Shown here: positions 26,592 through 30,042 of the stretch, in pieces
How positions within the stretch are numbered: position 1 is the stretch's first letter
Layout: each line of letters opens with the position of its first letter
From: Candidatus Liberimonas magnetica
GTDB taxonomy: Bacteria; Elusimicrobiota; Endomicrobiia; Endomicrobiales; JAFGIL01
DNA length: 64,000 bases
Assembly: GCA_020523885.1 (NCBI GenBank)
Contig: JAJAPY010000002.1
Span: 62,001-126,000 of the forward strand
Reading direction: 5' to 3'
The notes under the pieces: model-generated
Databases searched by the model: none
What the model saw: only the letters and a program-made list of their open reading frames with translations
What the model was told of the DNA's origin: nothing
Program-made: the position numbers and the translations under genes

Positions 26592-27857
26592 ATGGAGAAA
26601 TCTATGGACGTTACTGCTCTGGCTAACCGCACTATCCCGGAACTAAACACGCTTGCAAAGGAACTTAAGATCGAGTCAGTGGCGGGTCTTAGAAAACAGG
26701 AGTTGATAGCAAAGATCCTTGAAGCGCAGACCAAGGAGAACAACCTTGTTTATGATGAAGGTGTGCTTGAGGTTTTGCCGGACGGTTTCGGTTTTTTGCG
26801 TTCTCCTAACTATAACTATTTACCGGGCCCTGATGACATATACATTTCTCCTTCCCAGATAAAGAAATTCGCCCTTCGTAAAGGAGATACGGTCGCAGGT
26901 TATGTCCGCCCTCCGAAAGACCAGGAGCGGTTCTTTGCTCTGCTTCAGGTAAAATCCGTTAACGGGCAGGACCTGGAGAATATAAGGGAAAGGATATTGT
27001 TTGATAACCTGACTCCTTTATACCCAAACAAAAGAATAGTGCTTGAAACGGAAAGAAACGAGGTATCTACCCGGGTTTTAGACCTGGTCACGCCGTTGGG
27101 AAAAGGCCAGAGAATGCTTATAAATGCAGCGCCAAGAACAGGAAAAACAGTGTTTTTGCAGAAAATAGCCAATTCCATAACAAAAAATCACTCTGAAATA
27201 GTTTTGATGGTTCTATTGATAGATGAAAGGCCGGAAGAAGTCACGGATATGCAGCGCTCGGTAAAAGGAGAGGTTATATCTTCAACCTTTGATGAACCGG
27301 CAGACCGCCATATTCAGGTAGCTGAAATGGTGATAGAAAAAGCAAAAAGGCTTGTTGAACACGGAAAAGACGTTGTGATCCTTCTTGACTCGATCACGAG
27401 GCTTGCAAGAGCGTATAATACCGTTACTCCGTCAAGTGGAAGAGTGCTTTCCGGAGGCCTTGATTCAAATGCGCTTCAGCGGCCGAAAAGGTTTTTCGGT
27501 GCCGCAAGAAATATTGAAGAAGGCGGAAGCCTTACGATAATAGCCACGGCACTTATTGAAACAGGAAGCCGTATGGATGATGTTATATTTGAAGAATTTA
27601 AAGGAACAGGAAACTGCGAAGTTTACCTTGACAGGAAGCTTGCGGACAGGAGGATATTCCCTGCCATAGATATTGCCCGCTCAGGAACCCGAAAGGAAGA
27701 GCTTCTTTTAAATGAGGAAGAGCTTGCAAAGGTATGGATCTTAAGAAAGGTGATTACGCCGCTTAACCCCATTGAGGCGATGGAGCTTTTAATAGAAAAG
27801 ATATCCGCAACAAAATCAAATAAAGATTTCCTGAAATCAATGGAACTGTCCAGTTAA
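26592..27857 (+). CDS. rho: Transcription termination factor Rho
   Basis: Hexameric RNA helicase, 421 aa. An N-terminal Rho-N helical domain ([21 protein letters not shown]), a cold-shock RNA-binding domain ([26 protein letters not shown]) and the RecA-like motor are in order. Walker A is APRTGKT with Lys185; the Q-loop and R-loop regions and the Walker [14 protein letters not shown] are present. There is no insertion in the N-terminal part, unlike Rho of some Actinobacteria and Bacteroidetes. It has its own promoter and a long leader. Confidence 0.98.
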
Positions 27858-27995
27858 ATACGCATCTGTAGTTTGCGAAAAACAGCTAATTTCTGGTATT
27901 CATTTATAATTAAGTCATCTTACAGATATACTTACCAATGCCTTTTCTACGAACTCATAACCCATAACTCATAATAAGCCCTATTTCTGCACACA

Positions 27996-28024
27996 TTGAC
28001 AGATCAAAGCTAAAGAGATAAAAT
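27996..28024 (+). promoter_or_regulatory. Sigma70-type promoter of the lipoprotein gene
   Basis: TTGACA at 27996-28001, 17-bp spacer, TAAAAT at 28019-28024. The leader contains a small CTGCC/GGCAG hairpin near 28067-28079. AAGGAG precedes the ATG at 28121. Confidence 0.7.
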
Positions 28025-28120
28025 CCTGTTATTATGTGCTTATATCAAGGTGTGGTTTTTTATTTCTGCCTTGGGCAGGAATAAACCGTCGAAATAAAAT
28101 AAATTAAAAAAGGAGTTTAT

Positions 28121-28714
28121 ATGAAAAAATTGCAAGTTGCGGCAGTAAGTATGATGGTTGCATTATTTTTTTTAGGGTGCGGCAATAAAGGGTTTAAACC
28201 GTTTTATGTTTACAAGGACGGCAGGTTACCTATGAATCACTATGTACCGACAGGTGTTATGGGTGATTTCGGTGATATAACTATTATCGAAGATTCTACA
28301 GAGAATCCTCAAGAAGGCCTGTCCTGTATTAAAATAACGTATACCGCCAAAGCTGCAAGCGGCCAGAGATGGGCAGGTGTTTACTGGCAGGAGCCTGCGA
28401 ACAACTGGGCGAAACTTGAAAAAGGCGGTTTTGACCTTACCGGAGCAACAAGGCTTGTTTTCTGGGTACGCGGTGAAAAAGGCGGGGAAACGATATCCGA
28501 ATTCAAAGTAGGCGGAATGCAGGGCGATTTTCCCGATACAGCACTCTACAACATAGGCCCTGTAGTGCTTACAAAAGAATGGAAAGAATATGAGATACCC
28601 TTTGACGTTAATCCAAACCTTAAGCGCTTAGCTGGCGGTTTCTGCTTCGCCGCCTCGCAAAAAGATAATCCACAGGGATTTGTAATATATTTAGATAATA
28701 TCGTTTACAGGTAG
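28121..28714 (+). CDS. Lipoprotein with carbohydrate-binding-like beta-sandwich
   Basis: 197 residues with a lipoprotein signal peptide and lipobox FLGC (lipidated Cys near residue 20). The mature part resembles galactose-binding-like sandwich modules of the CBM11/CIA30 type: GLSCIKITYTA, RWAGVYWQEP, LVFWVRGEKGG, WKEYEIPFD and the closing FVIYLDNIVY. It probably sits in the outer or inner membrane and binds a sugar or organises a complex; no catalytic motif is seen. It has its own promoter. Specific ligand unknown. Confidence 0.75.
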   Translation: MKKLQVAAVSMMVALFFLGCGNKGFKPFYVYKDGRLPMNHYVPTGVMGDFGDITIIEDSTENPQEGLSCIKITYTAKAASGQRWAGVYWQEPANNWAKLEKGGFDLTGATRLVFWVRGEKGGETISEFKVGGMQGDFPDTALYNIGPVVLTKEWKEYEIPFDVNPNLKRLAGGFCFAASQKDNPQGFVIYLDNIVYR

Positions 28715-28725
28715 GTTTCATAGAA

Positions 28726-29066
28726 TTGTATCAAAAAATCAGACATTATATTTCTAATATTCTTGAGTTTAAAAATAGGGATTTTGCTTCTATTGTTGTA
28801 AATAGCGGCATTGTAAGTTTAATCCTTTTTAATGTGATAGTTGTCGTCCTTGAAACAGAAAAAACTATAGCTGTTAGATACTCTGCTCTTTTTCAGTTTG
28901 TAGAGTTGTTTTCTGTCGTTTTATTCTCGATAGAGTACTTATCGGTATTGCCATGTTCGGATTGCCAGCCGGTATTCTTGCTGCCGGCTTTATAGAAGAG
29001 ATGCATAAAACAGGAACAAGTGATACTGTGTGCCCTCATTGCGGGAAGAAAATAGATATAGTCTAA
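28726..29066 (+). pseudogene. Decayed voltage-gated-type potassium channel with internal deletion
   Basis: The first part reads YQKIRHYISNILEF then two hydrophobic helices ending VVLFSIEYL, matching the N-terminus and S1-S2 of bacterial Kv-type channels. In a different frame, directly after, the DNA encodes LIGIAMFGLPAGILAAGF and IEEMHKTG ending in CPHCGKKIDIV, which is the inner pore helix and tail of such channels. The region between (S3 to selectivity filter) is missing and the frames differ, so a deletion has joined the two ends. Total is 341 bp, well under half a normal channel gene. The first frame alone gives an 89-residue product (TTG start at 28726, stop at 28995). Confidence 0.7.
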
Positions 29067-29118
29067 AATAGTTTTAGAAATAGTACTTAAGGTTCTAACT
29101 CGCTTTGAACAGGTAAAA

Positions 29119-29412
29119 ATGATAAAAAAACTAAAAACTATATGTAATGATTTCAAGCGTGAAATAAAGGTATATCAACTGATTTTAAAAGACAGCCGCA
29201 CACCCTTATTATCTAAAATCTTGCTTGGCACAGCGGTTACATATGCGCTTTCTCCGATAGATATCATACCTGATTTTATCCCGGTCATAGGCCACTTGGA
29301 TGACCTAGTTATTGTGCCTCTTCTGATATATATCGCACTTTATCTAATACCTGATGAAGTAATAGAAGACTGCCGCCGTAAAGCGGAAAATCTCGATGTT
29401 GGAGCTAAGTAG
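29119..29412 (+). CDS. DUF1232 (YkvA-like) small membrane protein
   Basis: 97 residues. The core LLSKILLGTAVTYALSPIDIIPDFIPVIGHLDDLVI is diagnostic of the DUF1232 family; the segment forms one or two membrane helices. Function is not established in the family. Start ATG at 29119 is preceded by AGG in AACAGGTAAAA. It lies between a broken channel gene and a possible small RNA. Confidence 0.85.
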   Translation: MIKKLKTICNDFKREIKVYQLILKDSRTPLLSKILLGTAVTYALSPIDIIPDFIPVIGHLDDLVIVPLLIYIALYLIPDEVIEDCRRKAENLDVGAK

Positions 29413-29448
29413 ATTGACTAACGTCTTTAGGTTTTCCCGCAAACTTGC

Positions 29449-29557
29449 TATAATACATTCCTTCCTCTTAATTCCGCAATAGGACATAATCTAAATGCCT
29501 TTTAACATGGACATATGGTATATTGTTATTACGATATGTTTATGAAATATGTCCTAT
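29449..29557 (+). ncRNA. Possible small RNA or MITE-like hairpin
   Basis: An extended -10 (TGCTATAAT, TATAAT at 29449-29454) precedes a perfect 10-bp inverted repeat ATAGGACATA (29479-29488) / TATGTCCTAT (29548-29557) with partly complementary interior (GGACATATGG, GATATGTT). It lies in the 276-bp gap before rpmE. Could be a transcribed small RNA or a miniature element; no family recognised. Confidence 0.3.
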
Positions 29558-29609
29558 CAGGTCTATTTTAAAATAAATGGAAACATTCTCGCATTAATGC
29601 AGAAATAAT

Positions 29610-29638
29610 TTGACTTTTTAGTTAATTTTCTCTATAAT
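29610..29638 (+). promoter_or_regulatory. Sigma70-type promoter for rpmE
   Basis: TTGACT at 29610-29615, 17-bp spacer, perfect TATAAT at 29633-29638, 50 bp before the start codon. Confidence 0.78.
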
Positions 29639-29688
29639 TAGGCTTCAACTTTTTAAAATAAACTGAGACATAGAAAGGAGCATTTGAT

Positions 29689-30042
29689 ATGAAAGAAGGA
29701 ATTCATCCGAAATATGTAGAAGCGACTGTAACCTGCGCGTGCGGCAACACTTTTATTACGAGGTCAACAAAACCAGTGATAAAATTAGAAATATGTTCAG
29801 CCTGTCATCCGTTCTTTACAGGAAAACAGAAGCTTATTGACACTGCGGGAAGAGTAGAAAAATTTAAACAGAGATTTAAAAAAACTGAAGGAAAAACCCT
29901 TGCCAAGGAACCTAAAAAGAGAAGGGTGGAAACAAAGCCAAAGCGAAAGATACTTTCAACGTCTCCCAAAAGAAGAAGCGCAGCAGCCGCACCCAAGAAG
30001 AAAGAAGAAAAGAAAAAGGAAGAAAAAAAAGAAAGTAAGTAG
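29689..30042 (+). CDS. rpmE: Ribosomal protein bL31 with long basic tail
   Basis: Residues 1-70 are bL31: [16 protein letters not shown], four zinc-binding cysteines (Cys16, Cys18, Cys36, Cys39) making it the C+ zinc form, and [20 protein letters not shown]. Beyond residue 70 there is an unusual Lys/Arg/Ala/Glu-rich tail of about 45 residues (KKRR, KPKRK, then [11 protein letters not shown]). Normal bL31 ends near residue 70. The tail is likely disordered and RNA-binding. AAAGGAG precedes the ATG, and a strong terminator follows the gene. Confidence 0.93.

Follow-up and report, generated by a model that had tools for sequence, protein, structure and literature searches.

Two out-of-frame ends of a six-helix channel gene between rho and rpmE: a probable deletion pseudogene

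The locus and its neighbors

Within the window, namely the whole stretch of 64,000 nucleotides analyzed here, the gene order around the locus is rho, a lipoprotein gene, the channel remnant, a DUF1232 gene, rpmE, and prfA. The genes labeled rho, prfA, and lipoprotein are presumed to be such; ribosomal protein L31, encoded by rpmE, and DUF1232 were named by Pfam. The relevant coordinates are provided in Table 1.

Table 1. Features of the channel remnant and of the segment that surrounds it
Feature	Position	Strand	Remarks
Segment of 1.8 kb flanked by rho (26592-27857) and rpmE (29689-30042)	27858..29688	+	Lineage-specific among the genomes compared
Likely lipoprotein, open frame	28121..28714	+	Signal and cysteine read by eye; sub-cut-off CBM_4_9 match
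5' remnant of the six-helix channel gene	28726..28941	+	72 codons from TTG; cytoplasmic N-terminus, S1, S2; profile positions 8-85 of 272, E 1.9e-14
Deletion junction	28938..28944	+	Seven bases, CTTATCG, assignable to either side; derived from both frames and from the spacing in 76 relatives
3' remnant, end of S6 and CPHCGK zinc-ribbon-like tail, stop TAA	28938..29066	+	Profile positions 232-271 of 272, E 5.2e-15
Out-of-frame continuation of the 89-codon frame, with stop	28942..28995	+	Last 17 residues frameshifted
DUF1232 protein, open frame	29119..29412	+	PF06803, E 1.2e-14, over the cut-off

The frames were read directly. The 89-codon frame opens with a TTG, which is preceded by an AGG and lies 11 nucleotides past the stop of the upstream gene. 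Two hydrophobic stretches are contained in it. Its channel-like portion comprises approximately the first 72 residues, is S1-S2-like, and ends in ...FSIEYL (LFSVVLFSIEYL). The 3' piece lies in a different frame and extends from 28938 to 29063 as LIGIAMFGLPAGIL...CPHCGKKIDIV (in full, LIGIAMFGLPAGILAAGFIEEMHKTGTSDTVCPHCGKKIDIV), after which comes the TAA at 29064-29066. The two frames overlap around 28938-28995, and neither piece contains an internal stop. Base shuffling of the locus left a frame of 72 codons open in 16 of 5000 trials, and one of 42 codons in 201 of 5000. Note that the labels S1 to S6 attached to the pieces are presumed from general channel anatomy rather than computed.

The surroundings of rpmE were compared with those of the best 29 of 84 further matches, all from class relatives. 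At four of these 29 loci rho was in view (G001, from the same family, together with G005, G014, and G075), and there it lies ∼85-220 bp from rpmE with none of the three segment genes in between. Relatives of the channel, the lipoprotein, or the DUF1232 protein at E≤1e-3 were found at none of the 29 loci, some of which are cut by contig ends. With rho and rpmE adjacent in the four relatives, the 1.8 kb segment is particular to the lineage of the window among the loci seen.

Relatives of the DUF1232 protein occur in 20 of 95 class genomes, that of the window included. The protein was considered as a partner of the channel and set aside: a relative at E≤0.01 accompanies none of 82 channel loci among the matches listed, with flanks of up to 2.5 kb on each side, or less at contig ends. 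Lipoprotein relatives are present in 52 of 340 phylum genomes, again including that of the window, which carries a second copy at G000:C15; in several genomes neighboring copies lie on one contig (for example, G034:C93, G017:C13, and G014:C1). The ribosomal protein L31 consists of 117 amino acids and has a long lysine-rich tail, and the open frames listed for its relatives are mostly longer than 100 residues. A scan for promoters and terminators returned no terminator and 11 promoter-like sites against a shuffle mean of 6.6 (sd 2.7), which is not informative.

Identification of the two pieces

The comparison set consisted of 85 channel loci among the matches listed: three from phylum genomes, 80 (of 104) from the genome_contigs search, and two from viral contigs. 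From 70 of these, picked by length and an exclusion list, a channel profile of 272 positions was built in which the window sequence was not included. Most members, however, had been fetched via an alignment containing both window pieces. When the profile was run against the six-frame translation of the whole window, taken as 1728 open stretches with a minimum length of 20 residues, two matches at E≤1 were returned, both at this locus. These fall within the stretches 28699-28992 (5' piece) and 28878-29063 (3' piece), with the E values given in Table 1. The best matches of the 3' piece to intact channels are 50-57.5% identical over 39-40 residues, and intact proteins from the same phylum align at both ends of the remnant. 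Additionally, a translated search of a plasmid collection with the pieces joined gave 12 records at E≤1. In ten of them one piece alone is matched, and in the other two (Halorussus caseinilyticus and Deinococcus ficus) both pieces lie in one gene, an "ion transporter," with the middle between them.

General family libraries were less informative. Scans of the 89-residue frame against Pfam and NCBIfam assigned it to no family, a joined 53-residue query gave only sub-cut-off Pfam matches, mostly to zinc ribbons (best E 0.0027), and a search of the PDB sequences gave only weak matches, to voltage-gated channels (eight sequences, best E 0.13). The identification therefore rests on the relatives. 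As a single query against genome_contigs, the 89-residue frame yielded 142 pattern-matching stretches and no confirmed relative.

On the basis of the profile and the relatives, positions 28726-29066 are confirmed, at the level of sequence, as the two ends of a six-helix gene of the voltage-gated potassium-channel type ("ion transporter") from which the middle is missing. The S1-S2 portion of a voltage-sensor domain was recognized in the 5' piece, and the end of S6 with the CPxCG tail of the subgroup in the 3' piece. The profile search of the window gave no match to the positions of S3-S4 with the S4 arginines, and S5, the pore helix, and the T(T/S)(V/I)GYGD filter are absent at the locus by profile. 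By sequence, both ends match the six-helix "ion transporter" found in bacteria and archaea, which is of the Ion_trans type (PF00520) and has a TTVGYGD filter and a CPHCG tail. In contrast to that protein, the remnant lacks S4, S5, pore helix, and filter, and its ends lie in different frames, so that no channel is possible. The original prediction of an S1-S2 portion joined out of frame to the inner-pore-helix end with its CPHC tail is thus borne out, the two frames and the two profile matches being in agreement. That the first frame still encodes an 89-residue membrane peptide holds in part: the frame is open, but just ∼72 of its residues are channel-derived, and the final 17 are out of frame.

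The genome that holds the window (G000) is a draft assembly of 3,394,123 bases in 29 contigs and is 97.8% complete. One match to PF07885 was found in it, a two-helix TrkA-type channel of 335 residues on another contig (G000:C1:195189-195410). The single PF00520 match was below the cut-off and at the same place, and no intact six-helix channel was found in the assembly. The missing middle, taken from the class relative G041 and searched against this genome with a limit of E 10, matched the two-helix channel alone (E 0.0037). The pore of the two-helix protein is the single PF07885 potassium-channel pore located in this assembly; the protein belongs, however, to another family by its layout, has an open frame, and is not the source of the missing middle.

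Judged by the matches found, few genomes of the phylum carry the channel, and these are scattered. A search of 38 further genomes from this family and order with the S1-S2 piece alone gave no match at E≤0.001. Matches to the 3' piece at E≤0.01 occur in five of 340 phylum genomes, of which one is that of the window and one (G106) is unconfirmed; the latter match is weak (E 0.0028) and was dropped, as it has no profile match at E≤0.1. Two PF07885 matches in G001 are differently built proteins and not orthologues. Over their last 260 residues, the channels of G262 (a member of the phylum) and G041 (a member of the class) agree with their counterparts in named Elusimicrobia MAGs, so that an elusimicrobial origin is most likely for the genome of the window.

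Extent and position of the missing middle

A locus was accepted as intact if its 5' match scored at least 60 and a filter motif was recognizable, and 76 of the 85 loci passed. The nine that failed are L069, L084, L101, L112, L123, L130, L131, L132, and L133. Among them, the spacing is 153 residues in L101 and L123 and 151 in L112, and L130 and L133 sit at the start of the available DNA. Two pairs (L015/L053 and L008/L055) agree over the last 260 residues, which leaves 74 of the 76 distinct. The CPxCG motif is present in 75 of the 76, although a CPHCGK pattern had served in part to find the loci.

In the 76 relatives, the two breakpoints of the window are separated by 149-155 residues, with a median of 152. 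The remnants are thus colinear with the intact gene apart from one internal gap. From the frames and this spacing, the lost DNA amounts to 3n+1 bases, between 451 and 469, with a median estimate of 460 bp. The alignment gap begins just past S2 and ends inside S6, and with it have gone S3, the arginine-rich S4, S5, the pore helix, the filter, which carries the TT(V/I)GYGD motif, and the start of S6. The loss of S3-S5 and of the selectivity filter had been foreseen, and the comparison with intact relatives that had been proposed as a check adds the start of S6 to the list. With a loss of 3n+1 bases and the filter gone, the frame is broken and no product with the essential parts of the family can result.

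The junction, which had been placed near 28937-28950, was narrowed to about 28938-28944. Because CTTATCG fits both sides, it cannot be placed more finely, and a microhomology of at most 7 bp may possibly have existed there. The second residue past the EY(L/V/I) site is an arginine in nearly all listed relatives and a valine in the window.

Origin and age of the remnant

It is highly probable that a once complete channel gene suffered a deletion of ∼460 bp, most simply a single one, and that the locus is a deletion pseudogene. The ancestor would have been a six-helix gene of the voltage-gated potassium-channel type (an Ion_trans-type "ion transporter" with a CPHCG zinc-ribbon-like tail). The loss of ∼460 bp, most simply in one event, would have taken with it everything from S3 to the first part of S6 and put the two ends out of frame, as comparison with the relatives shows. 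A probable mechanism is slippage during replication or an illegitimate join between very short shared stretches, CTTATCG at most. The deletion is read from one assembly, and the microhomology is inferred. The product, if made, would be an 89-residue S1-S2 hairpin without pore and without S4, and for want of both the gene is presumably dead as a channel.

A different origin for the gap would be an error of assembly or consensus, whereby the organism carries the whole gene and ∼460 bp were dropped, or a minority deletion variant was merged. The source is indeed a single draft assembly in 29 contigs, both pieces are free of stops of their own, and the junction is flanked by an imperfect direct repeat of 17 nucleotides (82%, 28853-28869 and 29126-29142), the one such repeat with copies on either side of the junction in a search of 27700-29800; neither copy reaches the junction. 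Misjoins in assemblies arise mostly at repeats close to the k-mer in length, and with no repeat across the junction a repeat-driven misassembly is unlikely. The 401 bp spanning the junction have a single full-length occurrence, and the 28 other matches listed at E≤10 are short (the longest covers 42 query bases at 76% identity), none of them running across it. Searches did not find the missing piece on another contig, and the neighboring genes have open frames. An assembly error is thus unlikely. Of the two explanations first offered, deletion pseudogene or assembly error, the real deletion is favored by the single-copy stretch, the lack of a repeat at the junction, the failure to find the middle elsewhere, and the open neighbors.

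It could also be asked whether the remnant has a use of its own. An open frame with a TTG start 11 nucleotides past the upstream stop, an AGG ahead of it, and two hydrophobic stretches speak for a small protein. The S1-S2 hairpin, or a product of the 3' piece translated from an internal start, might then act, for instance by pairing with some other membrane protein or by inhibiting it. Such a role is very unlikely. The joined form is found in no relative among the matches listed (80 of 104 loci kept in the genome_contigs search), the last 17 residues are frameshifted, and no intact six-helix channel over the Ion_trans cut-off was found in the genome as a partner, the sole PF07885 match being the two-helix TrkA-type protein. 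Equally doubtful is the notion that the deletion made a gene for an S1-S2 membrane peptide, translated from the TTG behind the lipoprotein gene and kept for a role of its own. For a working 89-residue peptide, the analysis provided no support, nor any sign of upkeep by selection. Were it true, a small membrane protein would have been born from the deletion of a channel gene; nothing found points there. The overlap of the frames around 28938-28995 might likewise suggest a programmed frameshift that joins them into one protein. The joined product would still lack S3-S5, pore, and filter, where 76 relatives encode 149-155 residues; the missing filter excludes such a frameshift as a way to make a channel, and we give this reading next to no credence.

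Our verdict, accordingly, is that the channel family is a known one and the remnant an ordinary pseudogene of it, produced by deletion. Deletion pseudogenes that arise at short direct repeats are a known kind in bacteria. Shared with these are an internal deletion that is not a multiple of three, the retention of both ends, and the single copy; the difference is that the shared junction bases, at most seven, are here a deduction. The result matters for little more than annotation: a gene without function need not be entered among the potassium channels of the organism, and the locus provides an example of a patchily distributed channel gene being lost. Among the papers listed in literature searches, none concerns this channel gene by title.

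With respect to the age of the break, residues conserved in 90% or more of the family are retained at six of six positions in the 5' piece and at 11 of 13 in the 3' piece. For intact relatives the median at this threshold is 100% in both pieces, with nine of 70 falling below the window in the 5' piece and none of 70 in the 3' piece. At a threshold of at least 70%, the window keeps eight of 12 (5') and 15 of 19 (3'), and five and two of the 70 relatives are lower; at 50% or above, it keeps 17 of 28 and 18 of 25, and 11 and two are lower. With most family-conserved residues retained and no stops, the deletion may be of fairly recent date. This dating is not firm, however: conservation lies at the lower limit of the intact range, and the gene may have decayed somewhat or belong to a divergent lineage. 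The residues retained thus fit either a break of fairly recent date in a divergent gene or a certain amount of decay after the break.

Other damaged copies were encountered in the comparison set. Two loci of the same channel type (L069 and L132) are split by one in-frame stop, and at two more (L084 and L131) a search at E≤0.1 of stretches no shorter than 20 residues recovered the 3' part alone, despite the presence of DNA upstream. The copy in the window is thus not the sole broken one of the family in draft genomes.
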